A stretch of DNA of 34,953 bases, taken from the IMG/VR virus record IMGVR_UViG_3300026518_000033, positions 1-34,953 of that record, one strand, 5' to 3'. The DNA is from a virus. Positions 1,551-22,303 of this stretch are shown here, piece after piece; the first letter of the stretch is position 1; every line of letters begins with the position of its first letter. The notes beneath the pieces were generated by a model, which ran no database searches, had not been told where the DNA came from, and saw only the letters and a list, made by a program, of their open reading frames with translations. The translations under genes and the position numbers were made by a program.

Positions 1551-2051
1551 CTATGAAAACAAATCCTGATTGTCAAGCCCATATTTAGCAATTAATGATG
1601 CTTCTGCCACACCATCATGCTTCTTCAACCTAAATGATGTCTTAGCATGATCCGGCCATAATTCACGGGCTAAATCCAGACTGGGCAATTTATCAGCACT
1701 GCCTATGAGGTCATGGTGTTTCTTCCACGATTGGGGAGTGGGGTTGATGAATGGGATTCCTAGTGCGGCGAGGATTCCCCGATATTCCCCCAGTCCTGTG
1801 CCGAATCGAAACATGCTTGTCACCCCCTGTGAGCTTCGGGCCGATACTTTCTCTAATGCACCACACTCGGGGTTATATTGTTTGAGTATTTCGACTATCG
1901 CTGGGAGGTCCATAATATTACGAGTGGACTTCTTACCTTTCCTGAGATACGGCTCAGTCACAACAGGGACCATTGATGCATAGATTAGTTTATCATCGTC
2001 AATGATGGCAATACCACCCTTAAGACCTGGATCGATTCCGACAATTCTCAT
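1551..2051 (-). CDS. RuvC-type Holliday junction resolvase
   Basis: This encodes 166 residues from the ATG at 2051, with GGGA 8 bases upstream. An in-frame ATG at 2081 lies in the late-promoter hairpin and has no Shine-Dalgarno. The protein begins RIVGIDPGLKGG, the RuvC strand-1 motif with the first catalytic Asp, and has GALEKVSA with the catalytic Glu near residue 69. It ends with KKHDGVAEASLIA, carrying the last acidic residue of the RNase H-like fold. QGVTSMFRFG matches the conserved helix after the Glu motif. The role by family is cleavage of branched DNA made during recombination-dependent replication, so that it can be packaged. T4 uses an unrelated endonuclease VII (gp49) for this. 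The upstream region suggests late-specific expression through a hairpin. Confidence 0.9.
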   Translation of the reverse strand: MRIVGIDPGLKGGIAIIDDDKLIYASMVPVVTEPYLRKGKKSTRNIMDLPAIVEILKQYNPECGALEKVSARSSQGVTSMFRFGTGLGEYRGILAALGIPFINPTPQSWKKHHDLIGSADKLPSLDLARELWPDHAKTSFRLKKHDGVAEASLIAKYGLDNQDLFS

Positions 2052-2089
2052 AAATATGATCCCATCTATTGATACAATCATATTTATGA
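2048..2089 (-). promoter_or_regulatory. Inverted repeat covering the ruvC-like start codon, with a late promoter in the left arm
   Basis: Bases 2048-2060 and 2077-2089 are perfect 13-base inverted repeats around a 16-base loop. On the minus-strand RNA the 5' arm contains CAUAAAUA and the 3' arm contains the AUG of the ruvC-like gene. Part of the GGGA Shine-Dalgarno lies at the loop edge. An RNA covering both arms would hide the start codon. An RNA begun 6-7 bases after the CATAAATA octamer would start in the loop and could not fold this way. The stem is AU-rich, so its stability is moderate. Confidence 0.55.
2081..2088 (-). promoter_or_regulatory. Putative gp55-type late promoter, CATAAATA
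   Basis: CATAAATA on the minus strand, one base from the T4 late promoter TATAAATA, ends 30 bases before the ruvC-like ATG. It is identical to the octamer upstream of the first baseplate gene at 9984. The expected start of transcription is near 2075. Confidence 0.55.
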
Positions 2090-2104
2090 TATGTTAATAT
2101 TCTA

Positions 2105-2383
2105 TTACACCAATTCTTCCATATCAACCACCAACTGAAGGATTTGGGTTTTGATACTTGCAGGAACCGTGGGAACCATGACCGGAGCATTTTGGATATT
2201 CATATCAATCGTATACGCACCCCACCGAAGTGATATCCCAGTTAGGGTAATGCTGATGACAACCCGTGGATTTGACAGGGCATAACTCTCAACTGTGAAA
2301 AGTCCCACACGTTTGATACTGCCGTAATGCCTAACGATGGATCGGCAATCATCCATGAATTGTTGCGGATTATAATATCTCAA
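2105..2383 (-). CDS. Hypothetical small protein, TTG start
   Basis: This encodes 92 residues. The first codon is TTG, preceded by GGAGG with a 5-base spacing, the best Shine-Dalgarno in this part of the window, and no nearby ATG competes. The sequence alternates hydrophobic residues in beta-like fashion (VVISITLTGISLRWGAYTID) and ends in an amphipathic helix (ILQLVVDMEELV). I do not recognise a family. It is the first gene after the strong sigma-70-like promoter at 2408-2436, so it is probably made early. The ruvC-like gene follows 53 bases later. Confidence 0.7.
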   Translation of the reverse strand: MRYYNPQQFMDDCRSIVRHYGSIKRVGLFTVESYALSNPRVVISITLTGISLRWGAYTIDMNIQNAPVMVPTVPASIKTQILQLVVDMEELV

Positions 2384-2407
2384 TGTAACCTCCGTTGGTA
2401 AAATTAT

Positions 2408-2436
2408 ATTATACCGACATTATGGTGGGGAGTCAA
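2408..2436 (-). promoter_or_regulatory. Sigma-70-type promoter, TTGACT-17-TATAAT
   Basis: On the minus strand TTGACT (2436-2431) and TATAAT (2413-2408) are separated by exactly 17 bases. That is 5/6 and 6/6 matches to the host housekeeping consensus. Transcription would start near 2401, giving an 18-base leader to the TTG-start gene at 2383. The -35 box overlaps the end of the upstream Cys-rich gene. Readthrough from here would carry the ruvC-like gene with its hairpin. Confidence 0.75.
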
Positions 2437-2795
2437 TGCTTTCCATAAAGTTCAGAATAGTCTTTAACCAAACGCCGCATGTCATCATATATGCTTATAC
2501 AATCAAACCCAAGTTCTAATAGTGAAAACATTAAATCCGCACATCGTTCACAATGGTAATGGGTTGCTCGGGGTGGACCATGCTCAGTATCCTCTCCATA
2601 GATGTTGATTTCAATTTGGTATTCTGGAACCTTATACCTTAAAAACTGCGCCACAACGTCCCCAATGCCGATTTTGTCATCGCATGATACACATTTTCTA
2701 GTCCGTTTAGTTTGTAGAGTAGAATAATCACTGGGCCAGTCCCATCGAATATCACCGGGTTCTAACTCATGGTAGCACGAACATGACAGACTCAT
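2433..2795 (-). CDS. Cys-rich, probably zinc-binding hypothetical protein
   Basis: This encodes 120 residues. It contains CSCYHE at the N-terminus, a C-V-S-C pair near residue 35 and an H-x-H-C-x-x-C motif near residue 79 (HYHCERCADL), a spacing typical of a zinc ribbon or treble clef. The core (YSTLQTKRTRKCVSC, KVPEYQIE, HCERCADLMFSLLELGF, YDDMRRLVKDY) resembles a family of small proteins common in phages and prophages, whose function I do not know. Its ATG overlaps the stop of the GNAT-like gene in ATGA, indicating translational coupling. Confidence 0.75.
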   Translation of the reverse strand: MSLSCSCYHELEPGDIRWDWPSDYSTLQTKRTRKCVSCDDKIGIGDVVAQFLRYKVPEYQIEINIYGEDTEHGPPRATHYHCERCADLMFSLLELGFDCISIYDDMRRLVKDYSELYGKH

Positions 2796-3365: not shown

Positions 3366-3943
3366 GAGATATTACTTTCAGTAATATCCACCAACCTTGT
3401 CAATTGTGCATTATTGGCCAATGATGACATGAATGGGACCCATAGAGTTTCCCAAAAATTCTTAACCCATGGCTTGACCAGACTAAACCTAACATAATCA
3501 AAATTATCAAAACTTGGATCATTCCAGATAGTCGTGTCAAACTCTTGTTCATCATAAATCTCCATGATCGCTTCATAAGACGCTCGGGCCTCAGATGATG
3601 TAATATCATGGGATTTACGAGTATCTATAACACTTTTCGAGGCCCATTTAATGGCGCGGTCTCTATCCCATTCATGTAGTTGATCATATGTGAGAAATTT
3701 CCCCATAAAATATTCCATCTTGTCCGGTTGGTTGAGAAAATCGGCCCAACTGGTTGACCCAATGCTATTCCATTTGTATGACATACTGGTGAAGCTACTG
3801 GATACAATCACGTCAACCCAATGGTCATCTGGGCCATCATAATATTGAGTAATGCCACTAGTAATGATAAACGATGCCCACTCACCTTTATGGCGGATAT
3901 GGTATTGAGTTGGGTGCGATACTGTTATGTCAATGTCATTCAT
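3362..3943 (-). CDS. Hypothetical protein
   Basis: This encodes 193 residues from the ATG at 3943, which has AGGA 8 bases upstream. An ATG 9 bases earlier (3952) overlaps that AGGA and is less likely. It overlaps the end of the preceding endonuclease gene by 8 bases. The protein is rich in aromatic residues (WADFLNQPDKMEYF, VKPWVKNFWETLWVPFM), with no membrane-length hydrophobic run and no motif I recognise. Its place directly after a homing endonuclease gene suggests it may have been next to gp46-like before the endonuclease inserted, but that is inference. Confidence 0.65.
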   Translation of the reverse strand: MNDIDITVSHPTQYHIRHKGEWASFIITSGITQYYDGPDDHWVDVIVSSSFTSMSYKWNSIGSTSWADFLNQPDKMEYFMGKFLTYDQLHEWDRDRAIKWASKSVIDTRKSHDITSSEARASYEAIMEIYDEQEFDTTIWNDPSFDNFDYVRFSLVKPWVKNFWETLWVPFMSSLANNAQLTRLVDITESNIS

Positions 3944-5069
3944 CGGAGTCATCCTTTTTTTGCAATTTCCATACGGATTCCCACATTTCTATGTAATCGA
4001 AACCATGGCTGATAAAATCATTCTTCTTTGTTACAGTATTCTCGTATAGTTGTCCATAGGTGTTTTGGGTTGATGGGTTGACATCATCCGGATTATATAT
4101 TTTTGGATTCCCATGCCAATAATCCCCATGAAACTCATATACAGTATTGGTCTCTGGATCATATCCATCAACCACATACCGTCTATTGGTGATCAATCCA
4201 CCAACCTCCCTATGTGATGGATCATCTGGTATTCCCAACGAATTCAGCCATTCATTTGATGGCCTTGACACCAAGTGAGTGCATTTGGGACACCCACTAC
4301 CCCTAATATGGGCGTCCGGTGTTTGACTAAAAACTCCATGAGTGTGACATTCAATGTCAATATGGGTGTGGGCGTTCACATACTTATTATGGGGTGGATA
4401 CTGATATCCGTAATTGTGCATAATATTAGCCTTATTCACAAAATCTTCAAATGTGCTGCGTGATGCATTTCCGATCTTGGCACTACCACACTTGCCACAT
4501 CCATTACCTCCATAATGAGAATATGGCAGTTGCCAAAAGGGTCCGTGCGATGGACACACCATCTCGACTTTTGTCAAAGCATTGACGTATACTGTATGGG
4601 AGTAATCGTATGTATCCCCGTGGGTTTTGGTAGACTCACGGATAAAACTGTCAAGGTCATAAACCTTTCTGGAGCATTTTACACATCCATGCCCCTGTAA
4701 ATGCTTATTGGGGGTCTGAGCAAACTCACCATGATTTGGGCATACTATACTAACTGCTGTCAGGCTATCTTGGTAAACTACATTCGAGTAAGAATAATAG
4801 TGGTTATGAACAATATTAGCGGATGCTATGAATTGTTCATCGGTGTGGGTCCGGCTTATGCTACTCTGTATGTTTCTACATGATGGACATGGTATTTTCG
4901 CACGGAGATGTTGGTATGGGGTTTGTTCAAAATCTCCGTGCGTTGGACATCGTATGGTCATTTTGGTATCTATGTTCTCGTATACTGATTTAGTATACTG
5001 GTAGTTATCACCATGAATGACTCGTGCCCGTCTGATAAACTCGGGTAGAGCCAATCTGGTATTACTCAT
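3936..5069 (-). CDS. Free-standing homing-type endonuclease with four zinc-ribbon repeats
   Basis: This encodes 377 residues. The start is the ATG at 5069 with AGAGG 7 bases upstream. Upstream in-frame TTG and ATG codons are less well placed. The first ~265 residues are four ~60-residue repeats of the form F-I..A..H-G..Y-x-Y..V-Y..C-P-x-H-G-x-F-x-Q-x-P..H-L-x-G-x-G-C-x-x-C, each with a C-x-x-H and a C-x-x-C pair (DUF723-like zinc ribbon). The C-terminal ~100 residues carry DGYDPETNTVYEFHGDYWHG, an acidic, E-F-H-G-x-x-W-H-type core of the Vsr/PD-(D/E)XK nuclease superfamily. Such proteins in phages usually act as mobile endonucleases. It overlaps the gp46-like stop by 8 bases and has a paralogue at 8269-9159. 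Confidence 0.8.
   Translation of the reverse strand: MSNTRLALPEFIRRARVIHGDNYQYTKSVYENIDTKMTIRCPTHGDFEQTPYQHLRAKIPCPSCRNIQSSISRTHTDEQFIASANIVHNHYYSYSNVVYQDSLTAVSIVCPNHGEFAQTPNKHLQGHGCVKCSRKVYDLDSFIRESTKTHGDTYDYSHTVYVNALTKVEMVCPSHGPFWQLPYSHYGGNGCGKCGSAKIGNASRSTFEDFVNKANIMHNYGYQYPPHNKYVNAHTHIDIECHTHGVFSQTPDAHIRGSGCPKCTHLVSRPSNEWLNSLGIPDDPSHREVGGLITNRRYVVDGYDPETNTVYEFHGDYWHGNPKIYNPDDVNPSTQNTYGQLYENTVTKKNDFISHGFDYIEMWESVWKLQKKDDSDE
4020..4229. repeat. 210-bp near-identical patch, copy A
   Basis: This segment matches 8338-8547 with 6 mismatches in 210 bases (97%) in the same orientation and without gaps. It encodes the nuclease core of the endonuclease at 3936-5069. On both sides the identity drops abruptly to the level of diverged paralogues. 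Two of the gap-free runs exceed 55 bases. Confidence 0.95.
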
Positions 5070-6942
5070 AATCATCCTCTTCAATACGACTGATACGGTT
5101 TTTCAATTCGATCAGCATGACATCATCTATCTGATCAGCAATATCCATACGATGAGACACGAGTAGCACCCGTTTATCCTTATTCTTACATGTATCACGG
5201 AGTGCCTGCAGTGCCTGTTGCGCGCCCCTATTACAAATACCATTGTCTAACAACTCGTCGATACACAACAAGCTCAGGGGGTGATTGGTGGCCTCAAATA
5301 GGTCTTGGAAGGCTAAGTTCAACGATATGGTTACACGCTGTCGCTGCCCTTTTGATAAATTCCCCCAATCAAAATCCTCTCCAAAATCGGTAATGCTCAT
5401 GGTTAGATCGTTTTCGATTCTTACCTGAAATTGCAATTCCAAAATTGATAGATAATGTGCGATGCGATTATTCAACTGTGGTAGCCATCGGTCGATCACG
5501 GCCTTGCGGAGGAAGCTATCTTTGTTCTGTAAGAGATCAATGAGATAATTGAAATGGGCGATATTTTTTGACAAATCTTTCACTTCACTATCATCGATAT
5601 CCTCTAAGGCATTTTCCTTCATATCATGGATGGTATCACTGTGTGGATTTTCGTCCTGCTCCAGTTCTGTAAGTTTTTTCTCCATTTGATCCAAATTGGT
5701 ATTTGCCGCTTTAGCATCATCAATACTATCAAATATCAAATCAAATGTTGATAGTTCTGTCACTGTCTCTTCTAGTTCTGTCTCCTCTTGTTCTAATTGG
5801 CCTAGCTTATCTTCATGAACTGCAATTTCTGCAGAAGTGGCATTGATCAGGTCATTGGTCTCGTGGGGCACATTGGACAGTTCTTCAATTTCACCACTAA
5901 TCGATGCCATAAGCTCAGGATCAGCGACCCAATGTTGATGACAGGTGGGGCACTCGTTCTGGTCCAGCATTGATTGTTGATCGGTTAGGTCTACTAATCG
6001 TTTAGATGCCTCGTGAACCAACTTTTCTAGGTCTGATAGATCACGCTTGGACTGACGGAGTTCCAGATTTACGGCCCGCCGATTACTAGCATTTGCGGTA
6101 GTATCCTGCTCAACTTGATCTATCATCTCTAATATCTCAATCTGTTCAGCTACATCGACCCCTGACAGTGATTCAATTTGTTTGCGGAGATTATCCATAT
6201 CAGATTGGTGCTTATTTTCCCAAGCCGATTCCTTGGACTTGAGGTTATCTAACTGTTGGGTTACTCTTCTATTTGCTTGTCGGGTAGCCTCCACCGCAGA
6301 CTCCATCGCAATCAGGTCTTTTTTCAATTGCTTCCGGTCTTCACCGAGTTCCTTTGCCCGTGTGGTGAGTAGGTTCAACCCCATTAGGCGTTCAGCAATA
6401 GCCCGTTTCTCATCCTCTTTGAGTTTCATAAAGGGAATGGTTTCAGAGCTATTCACCATCAGATATTCAAACAACTTGATATCAAACCCAATAATCTCTT
6501 CAATATCCGCATTGGACTCAACCTTGTTTCGGCTAATATCATATACATAGGTTTTCCCATCACGGAGCATAAAATCATTCGTGTCATCTAGCTCTTTGCG
6601 GAATACCCTTAGTTTGGATGGGGACTCCCCCCGCTCAATTCGATATGCCCCAGACGGCGCATCTAGCTCTAGGACAGTAAGCATTCCCTGTCCCTTGCGG
6701 GCCATCTTATTGACTAGTTTGGAGTTACTGATCCCCCTCACGGTTTTCCCAAATAGGTTATATGATATGCCATCCAATATGGCACTCTTACCAGCACCAT
6801 TCCGTGACTCATCCCCGCCAGCATCGTGATTGAGACCCATCACCATGGTGATGTAGTTCCCTGTCAGATTGATCTCAGTCGGATTGGGACCGAATGATAG
6901 AAAATTTTTGATGATCAGTTTCTTGAACACAATGCCGTTCAT
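5062..6942 (-). CDS. 46: Rad50/SbcC-like recombination nuclease ATPase subunit (T4 gp46-like)
   Basis: This encodes 626 residues. The N-terminus is an ABC-type ATPase half with F-L-S-F-G and a P-loop ending NGAGKSA (K52). Long Glu/Lys-rich coiled-coil arms follow, with a zinc hook CPTC at residues 331-334. The C-terminal half has the signature LSKGQRQR, a Walker B LLCIDE near 560, and a VLLVSHR switch. With the gp47-like nuclease encoded just upstream (ATGA overlap) it should form the complex that resects DNA ends for recombination-dependent replication. It is slightly longer than T4 gp46 (560). The P-loop has an extra ~10 residues (HDAGGDESR) between G-x-N and N-G-x-G-K-S, predicted to bulge from the nucleotide site. 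Confidence 0.95.
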   Translation of the reverse strand: MNGIVFKKLIIKNFLSFGPNPTEINLTGNYITMVMGLNHDAGGDESRNGAGKSAILDGISYNLFGKTVRGISNSKLVNKMARKGQGMLTVLELDAPSGAYRIERGESPSKLRVFRKELDDTNDFMLRDGKTYVYDISRNKVESNADIEEIIGFDIKLFEYLMVNSSETIPFMKLKEDEKRAIAERLMGLNLLTTRAKELGEDRKQLKKDLIAMESAVEATRQANRRVTQQLDNLKSKESAWENKHQSDMDNLRKQIESLSGVDVAEQIEILEMIDQVEQDTTANASNRRAVNLELRQSKRDLSDLEKLVHEASKRLVDLTDQQSMLDQNECPTCHQHWVADPELMASISGEIEELSNVPHETNDLINATSAEIAVHEDKLGQLEQEETELEETVTELSTFDLIFDSIDDAKAANTNLDQMEKKLTELEQDENPHSDTIHDMKENALEDIDDSEVKDLSKNIAHFNYLIDLLQNKDSFLRKAVIDRWLPQLNNRIAHYLSILELQFQVRIENDLTMSITDFGEDFDWGNLSKGQRQRVTISLNLAFQDLFEATNHPLSLLCIDELLDNGICNRGAQQALQALRDTCKNKDKRVLLVSHRMDIADQIDDVMLIELKNRISRIEEDDYE

Positions 6943-7985
6943 TTGGTTTCTCCCATGAACAATGACACCAACAGTGATGGGTCAATATCTGATCCGTGTG
7001 GGTCAATCTGTAATAGGTGATCTGTGACGATCTCAGTCAGCGGCTTGCCATCCATATCCACCGCCTGTTTATCCTCAGTGTGTTCGCTAATTACTGATCC
7101 GGCATAAATGCGAGTTTCTCGAACCAATTCATTCAATTGATCACGAATCTCACTGATGTCTTCAAGTTCTAATGAGAGGTCATCCTTGATCTCCAAAATG
7201 CTTGACCCTCTGGTTACCTTACTGATGCCACCAGATTCCAGTAGATCGATAATCTCAGATGTGGAAAATCTCTGATATAATGGACCATCCGTGTAATTGA
7301 TAAATTCTGGCTCTCCCCCATATGGTAGTATCATCATACCACGGTCTTGATCACCTACATCATTAAAATCGTGACCAAATGGGCTTCCAATATACCAGAC
7401 TGGGACTTTATTTGAATTCACCTGCAATTGCCGTTTGTGGAAATGACCAGAGAAAATGTATTCCATACCAGATAGTTGATTAGCATTGAATTGACCACGG
7501 TCTGGCATTTGGATGGTGCTGTTCATGAGAAAATTCGGTAGTTCAAAATGACCGAAGAGATATTTGGCATCCATGTTGATGACATCTAAATACTCTGTTC
7601 CCACCAAAAACGGCACAAACCCTACCCCCTCAACCACAATAGGGTCATTATGCACAGTTACGTTATCCCAACAGTCGTAACCGGAGATACTAGTGATGTC
7701 TCTAGTGTGTCTATAAAACATATCATGGTTGCCAGGTATCATATACACCGGAGCGACCTGTCGTAGCATATCAACAACTCGGTTACCCACTGATAGTGTG
7801 TCTAGCCGCATACGTGACCGATTATCGAACAGGTCTCCGATGAAAATGATGGCATCTACATCAGCATTACGTGCTTGGTCACAGAACCATTGGGTATAAT
7901 CCAGACAGTCCTGATTGTGCACAGGGCTGTCTGAGTGTTTTCCTAGATGTAAGTCCCCGAATACCGCAGCTTTGTTGAACAGCAT
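6939..7985 (-). CDS. 47: Mre11/SbcD-like recombination nuclease (T4 gp47-like)
   Basis: This encodes 348 residues from the ATG at 7985, with GGAG 6 bases upstream. An in-frame TTG at 7997 has no such site. All calcineurin-type phosphoesterase motifs are present in order: GDLHLGKH, GDLFDNRSR, GNHDM, GHFE and SGHFHKRQ. These bind two metals for nuclease activity. The C-terminal ~100 residues are a helical cap that would contact the Rad50-like partner. Length matches T4 gp47 (339). It overlaps the gp46-like gene by 4 bases, so the two subunits are probably translated together. A possible sigma-70-type promoter lies just upstream. Confidence 0.95.
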   Translation of the reverse strand: MLFNKAAVFGDLHLGKHSDSPVHNQDCLDYTQWFCDQARNADVDAIIFIGDLFDNRSRMRLDTLSVGNRVVDMLRQVAPVYMIPGNHDMFYRHTRDITSISGYDCWDNVTVHNDPIVVEGVGFVPFLVGTEYLDVINMDAKYLFGHFELPNFLMNSTIQMPDRGQFNANQLSGMEYIFSGHFHKRQLQVNSNKVPVWYIGSPFGHDFNDVGDQDRGMMILPYGGEPEFINYTDGPLYQRFSTSEIIDLLESGGISKVTRGSSILEIKDDLSLELEDISEIRDQLNELVRETRIYAGSVISEHTEDKQAVDMDGKPLTEIVTDHLLQIDPHGSDIDPSLLVSLFMGETK

Positions 7986-8013
7986 TATTGTCTCCAAATC
8001 ATTTATTTTCTAT

Positions 8014-8268: not shown

Positions 8269-9159
8269 TCATTCCTTGTGTTGTATCCAACCGGATTCCC
8301 AAATTTCATAATAATTATACCCCGCGTCCAAAAACGTATTCTTCTTTGTTACAGTATTCTCGTATAGTTGTCCATAGGTGTTTTGGGTTGATGGGTTAAT
8401 ATCCTCCGGATTATATATTTTTGGATTCCCATGCCAATAATCCCCATGAAACTCATATACAGTATTGGTCTCTGGATCATATCCATCAACCACATATCGT
8501 CTATTGGGGATCAGTCCACCAACCTCCCTATGTGATGGATCATCTGGCAAACCTAATGAATCCAACCATTGATCTGATAAAAACGAAATACGTTTTCCGC
8601 ATCTCGGACAACCATCTCCATTCAGATGATCATTAGGGCGTTGTAAAAAATCTCCATGGTCATCACAGGTTATCGGTAGTAACGAGGAGGATCGTGTATA
8701 TTCTACAAGATATCTATAACGATTTCCATGAATCTGGTTGGATTTTTTAACAAACTCATCATGAGTGATGGATACTCCACCGTTGCACTTGGAACATCCA
8801 TGCCCAGCTAGGTGATTATTTGGGGATTGCAGAAAATCTCCATGTATGTCACAGGTTATCGTAACAGGGGCGATAGCCGTTTTGTAGACGGTGTGATGGT
8901 ATGAATAACCTGATGAGTGAGCATGTTTAGCCTTTTTGGTAAACGATATGGTATCCGAAGGATAATTCTTCACACATCTAGGGCACCCATTACCGGTTAG
9001 ATGATTTGCTGGTCGTTGGGTAAATTCTCCATGAGTTGGACAAATGATGACAATCGGGGAGGTTGATGATTGGTAGTCAGATAATGAATAATCATACTTA
9101 TCCCCATGCGTTGAGATTGCCCTCGTGATAAATTCATCTGTTGTTAACTTTTTTGCCAT
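8269..9159 (-). CDS. Free-standing homing-type endonuclease with three zinc-ribbon repeats (paralogue)
   Basis: This encodes 296 residues. Three ~60-residue DUF723-like repeats, each with C-x-x-H and C-x-x-C (ICPTHGEF..GCPRC, TCDIHGDF..GCSKC, TCDDHGDF..GCPRC), precede the same Vsr/PD-(D/E)XK-type core (DGYDPETNTVYEFHGDYWHG) as the gene at 3936-5069. The repeat part is clearly diverged from that paralogue and one repeat shorter, while the nuclease core is almost the same at DNA level. The gene begins inside the end of the gp55-like gene (26-base overlap, different frame), so it sits between gp55-like and gp47-like. The start has only a weak Shine-Dalgarno. Confidence 0.8.
   Translation of the reverse strand: MAKKLTTDEFITRAISTHGDKYDYSLSDYQSSTSPIVIICPTHGEFTQRPANHLTGNGCPRCVKNYPSDTISFTKKAKHAHSSGYSYHHTVYKTAIAPVTITCDIHGDFLQSPNNHLAGHGCSKCNGGVSITHDEFVKKSNQIHGNRYRYLVEYTRSSSLLPITCDDHGDFLQRPNDHLNGDGCPRCGKRISFLSDQWLDSLGLPDDPSHREVGGLIPNRRYVVDGYDPETNTVYEFHGDYWHGNPKIYNPEDINPSTQNTYGQLYENTVTKKNTFLDAGYNYYEIWESGWIQHKE
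8338..8547. repeat. 210-bp near-identical patch, copy B
   Basis: This is the partner of 4020-4229, with 204 of 210 bases identical. It encodes the nuclease core of the second endonuclease. The mismatches fall in two clusters of three, around bases 60-70 and 165-180 of the patch. Confidence 0.95.
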
Positions 9160-9877
9160 TGACTTTCATAAACTCTTCGGTTTTCCTTGACAACCAATTT
9201 TTGTATTCCACATCATCCATCTTACTGATATCATCCTCTGGTATCACTTTAGGTTTTTTCCTACGACGACGAAGCATTGGATTTGATTCTATAGCTTTGG
9301 TTCCGTCAAGATCAATATCTAGTGAATTCCCCACATCTTCGTTTTGTCGCCCGTGTGAGGGTAACAGGTCTGTGTCAGACATCTCAATGATGGAGTCTCT
9401 GATCTTGCCCTGTTTCTTCTCATTACTGATATAGGTCAAGAAGATTCTCTTTGTAATTTGGGTATAATAGCTAAAGGGGTTTGGGTATTTTCCTGCTTTT
9501 TCACGATTAAATTTTAAAGCCACTCTGCATAGATTTAGGGTAGCATCAGACTGCATATCCTCGATCCACGTATATCCACGCCATCTCCAACTGGTGGCGT
9601 AATTATGGACCAATTCCATGATCATTTTTAATAGCGTAGGTGTTAGGCAATCTATGGCAGCGTTTTGGATAGCCGCATCAACGGCTTTTTCAAATTTGAT
9701 ATCATCATCTAATGAAACTGGTGTGGATGATGTGGAGTCTGCCATAGATTTGTTGCGTTCATCCGTCATCTGCTGCCGAATTTGATCAGCCCGAATTTTA
9801 TGGATTTCCTGACTTGCTACGATTTCTCGTAATAGGTTTGCGTTATTTACATAGTCTCTTGGTCGCTCAATTGCCAT
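9134..9877 (-). CDS. 55: Late-transcription sigma factor (T4 gp55-like)
   Basis: This encodes 247 residues. The centre (about residues 85-165) shows the phage late sigma pattern: helix YATSWRWRGYTWIEDMQSDA, then LNLCRVALKFNREKAGKYPNPFSYYTQITKRIFLTYI as in sigma region 2, then EKKQGKIRD. The FN-x-E..NP-F-x-Y-x-T-Q segment is characteristic of gp55. The N-terminal ~80 residues and the basic stretch RRRRKKPKV near 220 are extra relative to T4 gp55 (185 aa). By family it replaces sigma-70 on host RNA polymerase and directs it to TATAAATA-like late promoters. GAGG lies 9 bases before the ATG. It heads the leftward set, across the divergent gap from the baseplate genes. Confidence 0.9.
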   Translation of the reverse strand: MAIERPRDYVNNANLLREIVASQEIHKIRADQIRQQMTDERNKSMADSTSSTPVSLDDDIKFEKAVDAAIQNAAIDCLTPTLLKMIMELVHNYATSWRWRGYTWIEDMQSDATLNLCRVALKFNREKAGKYPNPFSYYTQITKRIFLTYISNEKKQGKIRDSIIEMSDTDLLPSHGRQNEDVGNSLDIDLDGTKAIESNPMLRRRRKKPKVIPEDDISKMDDVEYKNWLSRKTEEFMKVNGKKVNNR

Positions 9878-10016
9878 TAGTTATTGCCTCGTTGGTGGTA
9901 GTAATTATGATAGAATACTCTACATGTATACATCACCCATACATATAGTGGGGTTTCTTTCATCAAAAACAAGACCTAATGATCATAAATATGAGTAATC
10001 ATGTGAGGAAATATTG
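9878..10016. other. Divergent intergenic region between sigma factor and baseplate genes
   Basis: These 139 bases separate the leftward and rightward gene sets. They contain the gp55-like Shine-Dalgarno on the minus strand and a late-promoter octamer plus GAGG on the plus strand. No convincing sigma-70 promoter for the leftward set was found here. Expression of gp55-like may rely on a phage middle-type promoter that I cannot recognise. Confidence 0.7.
9984..9991 (+). promoter_or_regulatory. Putative late promoter CATAAATA
   Basis: The octamer ends 26 bases before the ATG of the first baseplate gene. It is one mismatch from the T4 late consensus and identical to the octamer upstream of the ruvC-like gene. 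Confidence 0.65.
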
Positions 10017-22263: not shown

Positions 22264-22303
22264 TGATCTCACCTAAATATTAATAATAATTTAGGTGAGA
22301 TCA
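22264..22303 (+). promoter_or_regulatory. Perfect 15-bp inverted repeat masking the gp7-like Shine-Dalgarno
   Basis: Arms 22264-22278 and 22289-22303 are perfectly complementary around a 10-base loop. The 3' arm contains AGGTGA, 7 bases before the ATG at 22306. The 5' arm contains TCACCT, the same bases as the 16S rRNA anti-Shine-Dalgarno region, and most of the late promoter CCTAAATA. In an RNA reading through from gp6-like, the ribosome site would be fully paired. An RNA initiated from the promoter would start in the loop and leave the site free. It has no U-tract, so it does not look like a terminator. Confidence 0.7.
22272..22279 (+). promoter_or_regulatory. Putative late promoter CCTAAATA inside the hairpin left arm
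   Basis: The octamer ends 27 bases before the ATG of the 3106-residue gene. By analogy with T4 late promoters transcription would start near 22285, inside the loop of the inverted repeat. Confidence 0.65.

Follow-up and report, generated by a model that had tools for sequence, protein, structure and literature searches.

The ruvC-like gene described here is most probably a late-gated gene within an early/middle operon, its translation predicted to be governed by a late promoter that lies inside a hairpin masking the start of the gene. The gene is found in a virus record of 34,953 bases, the whole stretch of DNA analysed and referred to below as the window, which is a piece of a T4-superfamily jumbo phage with a gp55-type late sigma factor. 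RNAs begun upstream, either at a sigma-70-like promoter (2436-2408) or by read-through from gp55-gp47-gp46, would carry both arms of the hairpin and shut both the SD and the AUG. Once the gp55-type sigma factor is made, polymerase would start at the late octamer within the hairpin; the late RNA would begin in the loop, without the 5' arm, and its initiation region would be open. The phage would thus make its resolvase late, at the stage when branched DNA has to be trimmed before it is packaged, and do without it early, when cleavage of the intermediates of recombination and replication would cause damage. We infer the actual RNA 5' ends, the difference in translation, and the biological reason for the gating from the sequence.

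The mechanism itself is already known from the T4 genes e, soc, 49, and I-TevI; what is new is that a different lineage has it fixed on a non-homologous resolvase. A literature search conducted mostly outside subscription journals found no description of such a hairpin switch in these jumbo phages or on any gene of the RuvC type.

Genomic setting of ruvC

The named phages nearest to the window are the jumbo myophages RaK2, GAP32, PA5oct, Atu_ph07, Phosso, and XaC1, with identities of 32-36% for gp6 and about 36% for gp47. The minus strand of the window carries gp46, gp47, and the gp55-type late sigma factor, and a divergent virion operon is composed of gp53-gp5-gp25-gp6 (Table 1). Because ruvC lies on the gp46 strand, early/middle read-through would be expected to reach the resolvase, as at T4 gene 49, and a lock on the long RNAs would then make sense. 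Two related homing-endonuclease-like ORFs of the DUF723/zinc-finger type (3936-5084 and 8269-9159), very similar in their C-terminal parts, adjoin gp46 and gp55. Both strands of a repetitive tract close to the contig end (207-568) carry ORFs of low-complexity repeats (SGIISG..., MPLMQP...).

Table 1. Features of the ruvC region and of the other loci discussed, with positions in the window.
Feature	Position	Strand	Remarks
RuvC/MOC1-like Holliday junction resolvase, 166 aa	1551..2051	-	phrog_1770 8e-29; MOC1 chains 7e-11
Hairpin 3' arm, holding AUG (2051-2049)	2048..2060	-	inverted repeat and fold
SD-like GAUGGG	2061..2066	-	partly paired in long RNA (inner helix)
Predicted late transcription start, hairpin loop	2075..2075	-	inferred by T4 spacing rule
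Hairpin 5' arm	2077..2089	-	only in RNAs begun upstream
Late-promoter octamer CATAAATA	2081..2088	-	within 5' arm, 37 nt ahead of ATG
92-aa ORF, family unknown	2105..2383	-	between sigma-70-like promoter and ruvC
Sigma-70-like promoter TTGACT-17-TATAAT	2408..2436	-	11/12 matches; ORF-free gap
gp46 recombination nuclease	5062-6942	-	upstream of ruvC, same strand
gp47 recombination nuclease	6939-7997	-	upstream of ruvC, same strand
gp55-type late sigma factor	9134..9877	-	phrog_234, 1e-23
CATAAATA, reference late promoter of the window phage	9984..9991	+	33 nt ahead of ATG 10017
Second hairpin, 15-bp perfect stem, octamer CCTAAATA (22272-22279)	22264..22303	+	before 3106-aa virion gene (ATG 22306)

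The sigma-70-type promoter that the initial annotation had reading toward ruvC is present, and it is presumed to be the early/middle start of the long leader RNA. Sites of the same quality (11/12 matches) number seven in the window, against 1.2 expected; all lie on the minus strand, two of them inside the related homing-endonuclease-like ORFs. No sigma-70-like promoter was found near ruvC in two related lineages (L244 and L247). Downstream of the promoter, the stop codon of the 92-aa ORF is 15 nt ahead of the hairpin 5' arm. The leaders at 2402-2380 and 1537-1515, both of which follow sigma-70-like promoters, have TTTACCAA(A)CGGAG in common, which is possibly a shared early/middle leader motif.

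The resolvase

The product of ruvC is, as judged from its sequence matches, a RuvC/MOC1-type resolvase, in the same protein family as the RuvC/MOC1-like phage resolvases of phrog_1770 and the MOC1 structures. The profile of the RuvC clade matches MOC1 chains with values as low as 7e-20 (plant MOC1 structures, e.g., 6kvn and 8kfr), and the RuvC acidic residues D7, E67, D146, and E150 are invariant among the seven clade sequences. The window protein matches RuvC-like families only, with no match to the EndoVII (gp49) family. An alternative start at the in-frame AUG at 2081, which would add 10 residues, was set aside, as it is without an SD and lies inside the 5' arm.

The late-promoter motif

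The window contains three copies of the octamer CATAAATA (2081 on the minus strand, 2049 and 9984 on the plus strand), against 2.99 expected. This is chance level, so that the position of the octamer counts rather than its number, and the number was dropped as support. The copy at 9984 precedes the first rightward virion gene, and relatives have the motif in the same position. In GAP32, PA5oct, Phosso, RaK2, XaC1, and Atu_ph07, ATAAATA lies 24-65 nt ahead of virion and other genes, and never ahead of gp55, gp47, or gp46. The same motif has been described ahead of the structural genes of CBB and GAP32 (PMC5259590), and it is also the one found before the structural genes of the window's gp55-encoding relatives.

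Within the closer clade of the window the motif is widened to NNTAAATA, which is the late-promoter motif of these relatives. Of 54 genes in G001, 8 have GTAAATA ahead of them (0.14 expected); TAAATA stands ahead of 11 of 67 in G019 (0.45 expected), and in both genomes TCTAAATA is found ahead of the major head protein gene. The dominant form in G001 (L035, L200-L202) is NGTAAATA, and G019 (L207, L240-L242) has a mixture of NATAAATA, NCTAAATA, and NGTAAATA; this drift perhaps reflects a changed specificity of gp55.

The hairpin and the two leader RNAs

The core of the initial annotation at ruvC, namely the inverted repeat and the octamer together with the sigma-70-like promoter, was recovered in the sequence. 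The 13-base perfect repeat has arms that are 100% complementary across a 16-nt spacer, and it is the sole inverted repeat of at least 12 nt within 1900-2600. In ten dinucleotide shuffles of the whole 35 kb, repeats of at least 12 bp numbered 0.1 per window, and none reached 13 bp. The 48-nt hairpin RNA (2092-2045) has a folding energy of -20.5 kcal/mol (z = -6.65), and none of 200 shuffles was equally stable. The minus strand ahead of ruvC reads ...ACATATCATAAATATGATTGTATCAATAGATGGGATCATATTTATGAGAATTGTC..., and the AUG pairs, as had been claimed, with the CAU of the octamer.

In T4, the late octamer occupies -13 to -6. By this rule, the late start is predicted at 2075, downstream of the 5' arm (2089-2077), and moving it by 2 nt leaves the outcome unchanged. 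Folding predictions for the long RNA have the SD and/or the AUG masked. The initial annotation had suggested a comparison of the free energies of the two leaders, and the result is in line with it: opening the initiation region would cost 17.5-17.7 kcal/mol in the long RNA versus 8.0 kcal/mol in the late RNA. At 8.0 kcal/mol, the late RNA is still partly closed, because GGGAUC can pair with a downstream GAUCC.

The location of the stem-loop between genes is also what a transcription terminator or attenuator acting against early read-through would have. There is no U-run after the hairpin, however, a terminator scan was negative at the site, and the stem covers the SD/AUG in every lineage, all of which make termination a highly improbable function.

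Conservation in related lineages

Related lineages were sought by scans with RuvC and with the aligned gp46 proteins of the clade. Scans with gp47 and gp46/gp6 returned mostly distant relatives, and it was the clade-specific gp46 alignment that succeeded. Among GTDB contigs, gp46 had no match and RuvC had three, all outside the clade. A weak RuvC match in G003 (L196) was set aside as a different, distant protein without an octamer.

Seven lineages, including the window, have ruvC downstream of gp55-gp47-gp46 on the same strand. In the six further lineages RuvC is 45-61% identical to that of the window and lies 0.2-3 kb downstream of gp46; in L246 it follows gp46 by 213 nt, with no ORF between. 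A late octamer is found 22-37 nt ahead of ruvC in six of the seven lineages (the window, L244/L245, L246, L247, L207, and L249), whose RuvC proteins are 48-61% identical to that of the window; in the five other than the window it is NNTAAATA, at 22-31 nt. All six octamer-bearing lineages have the octamer inside a predicted hairpin over the SD and/or AUG that RNAs begun at the octamer would no longer form, and z for the leader region ranges from -1.9 to -4.8.

The predicted costs of opening the long and late RNAs are 14.9 and 2.6 kcal/mol in L247 (...gaaccCCGTGGGGGATTAAATATCCCCGCGaggttcacATG), 19.4 and 4.5 in L249 (AATAAATAcctttctacaatgagaggtgtttATG), 15.6 and 2.5 in L207 (...cgcccctgcTCTAAATAcggcagaggtgacatATG), 9.3 and 2.2 in L244, and 7.2 and 1.6 in L246. 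The octamer of L249 pairs with the AUG, as in the window. The start codon of L244 ruvC is ambiguous, since an upstream in-frame ATG would leave the late RNA nearly leaderless. The exception is L035/L208, with RuvC 45% identical. Its ruvC leader has only GATAAGTA, one mismatch from NNTAAATA, and the structure whose loop contains this sequence is weak (z -1.66).

Among the ruvC leaders of the clade, conservation is limited to the TAAATA core and the ATG; the remainder does not align, and the flanks around the octamer are for the most part no more alike than shuffled sequence. The pairing thus appears to have been kept while the sequence of the stem turned over. This bears out the suggestion that the arms might covary in related phages, in that octamer and hairpin are present in six lineages with stems largely unrelated in sequence. 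An octamer retained without the pairing was seen at a control virion gene and at no ruvC gene.

The same comparison bears on whether the repeat acts in DNA, as a binding site for a repressor or resolvase or as two convergent late promoters, rather than as an RNA switch. In the window each arm is nearly palindromic, and CATAAATA is present on both strands. The other lineages have different stems and mostly no second octamer, so that there is no shared operator or convergent promoter, and convergent late promoters on both strands were rejected as not kept in relatives. What persists is the pairing of the SD/AUG, and a DNA-level dyad is very unlikely.

Controls and other hairpin-led genes

The six ruvC leaders have a larger long-minus-late difference than 324 other late-octamer genes from T4-superfamily loci (p = 6e-7, phylogeny ignored) and than 50 late-octamer genes of their own clade (p = 6e-5, phylogeny ignored), the gene starts of the control set having been called automatically. 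The 13-bp helix between octamer and initiation region is the lone outlier among 228 genes, the next being 8; helix lengths of the other genes resemble those of mismatched octamer/gene pairs, which rarely exceed 8. It is conceivable that the match between an AT-rich octamer and an AT-rich start region is accidental and has no function, as CATAAATA is naturally complementary to UAUUUAUG and octamers are no more numerous in the window than expected by chance. The unmatched length of the helix, the comparison with the 324 genes, and the occurrence of differing, partly GC-rich stems in six lineages all stand against such a by-product, which is hardly tenable.

On 22 contigs without detected gp55, several of which are near-duplicates, no octamer was found 18-60 nt ahead of the starts of RuvC relatives; one of them (L217) has an octamer match 11 nt from the ruvC start. 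The leaders of RuvC/MOC1-like resolvases in phages without detected gp55 are, unlike that of the window, without the late octamer. Overlap between ruvC and the stop of the preceding gene is seen in several named phages.

Some other late genes have stems as strong as that of ruvC. A second hairpin in the window ends 2 nt short of the ATG of the 3106-aa virion gene (Table 1), with opening costs of 21.9 (long) and 2.6 (late), and the orthologue in L253 has a stronger one (25.1/2.1). The octamer of this giant gene is kept in all five clade loci besides the window. The strong hairpin is restricted to the window and L253 (two of five lineages); that of L117 is modest, and there is no long/late difference in L240 or in L201 = L243, which represent two distinct leaders. 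A scan of viral contigs for the exact hairpin pattern yielded 12 loci, some of them due to chance and none a further RuvC. Two of these, in marine T4-like contigs (L018:2167-2208 and L024:6471-6512), are the same late gene with the same hairpin design: the gene follows tail-fibre-like genes and encodes 116 aa of unknown family, and at the gene start CATAAATATG pairs with CATATTTATG.

These genes suggest a broader reading, that translation is gated by promoter in general. Only RNAs begun at the late promoter of the resolvase gene would allow its translation, regardless of when upstream transcription takes place, and early/late gating would be one use of a wider insulation device. The design recurs at the 3106-aa virion gene and its L253 counterpart, both after other late genes, and in the tail-fibre operon of L018/L024, where an ORF starts at the 3' arm. 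The virion-gene hairpin is nevertheless strong in two of five lineages versus all six octamer-bearing lineages at ruvC, and ruvC is the one that is downstream of early/middle genes. General promoter gating is therefore the less likely account, though not a negligible one, and late gating of ruvC within an early/middle operon is preferred. Of the initial description of the switch as early-off and late-on, the difference between the leader forms stands in the folding predictions; the early-off part may be one case of a wider own-promoter rule, because a similar hairpin precedes a purely late virion gene.

Comparison with T4 and exchange of the resolvase

In T4 gene 49, which encodes endonuclease VII, the start is masked by a hairpin in early RNA and a late promoter lies inside it (Barth et al. 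1988, as cited in PMC2988022 and PMC3014915). Late promoters likewise drop the 5' strand of a masking stem in T4 e, soc, 49, I-TevI, and segB and in Aeh1 mobE (PMC3014915, PMC2988022). The same computation gives opening costs of 15.4 (long) and 3.6 (late) kcal/mol for gene 49 and 16.4 and 4.0 kcal/mol for e. It finds no long/late difference for soc, and because of this miss the opening cost is an imperfect predictor.

Gene 49 and the ruvC of the window both encode Holliday junction resolvases, both are downstream of early/middle genes, and both have the octamer in the 5' arm, beginning exactly 37 nt ahead of the ATG. They differ in that EndoVII and RuvC/MOC1 are unrelated families, in stem sequence, and in flanking genes, and in the window it is the AUG that the octamer pairs with. 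Experiments underlie the T4 switch, whereas that of ruvC is predicted from sequence. With e, soc, I-TevI, segB, and Aeh1 mobE, the likeness is a late RNA without the 5' strand of the stem masking the SD/AUG; these genes belong to other genomes and serve in lysis, in the capsid, or as homing endonucleases. The parallel drawn by the initial annotation with gene 49 thus holds for the costs and the octamer distance, which are similar, but the arrangement is not special to gene 49, being found also in e, soc, I-TevI, segB, and mobE (PMC3014915, PMC2988022). Its larger proposal, the same regulatory solution on a non-homologous resolvase, is supported by the predicted leader energies and by conservation in six lineages.

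In other jumbo phages, the gene adjoining gp46 encodes different resolvases on the opposite strand: EndoVII in GAP32, RaK2, and XaC1 (phrog_423 in GAP32) and a RusA-like enzyme in PA5oct and Phosso. Early read-through would not reach a resolvase in that orientation. The EndoVII leaders of GAP32, RaK2, and XaC1 are, unlike that of the window, without an exact ATAAATA. Across L029, L030, L031, L033, L034, and the window, the locus beside gp46 displays non-homologous replacement among EndoVII, RusA-like, and RuvC/MOC1-like resolvases, with a change of strand in the RuvC clade relative to related jumbo phages.

In the RusA-like gene of Phosso (L031:24941-25530), CATAAATA is 41 nt ahead of the ATG and forms 8 bp with UAUUUAUG, which adjoins the SD. 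This may be a related leader in a third family of resolvases; the opening difference does not stand out (4.2 kcal/mol, rank 46 of 228), and the late strand carries the gene. Atu_ph07 contains a RusA-like Holliday junction resolvase ORF (L028:19016-19513, phrog_244), not so annotated in its record, with TATAAATA about 41 nt ahead of the ATG. No octamer was found near the gp46-strand RusA genes of L039, L049, L055, L068, L075, and L102.

Implications for the T4 superfamily

The case is a candidate for regulatory convergence, with the T4 switch on endonuclease VII and that of a jumbo-phage clade on a MOC1-like RuvC. A generalization that we advance tentatively, as plausible but somewhat more doubtful than not, is that late gating of the resolvase in the T4 superfamily may be a selected requirement that tracks the activity rather than the gene family. 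The switch would then re-evolve on exchanged resolvases (EndoVII, RuvC/MOC1, and perhaps RusA) wherever they are downstream of early genes, with stems turning over freely. Operon position alone does not give the timing of a resolvase, which calls for caution. Because the switch is recognisable by its structure despite near-complete turnover of sequence, it can be searched for in metagenomic phages, and the case makes it testable why an early resolvase would be costly.
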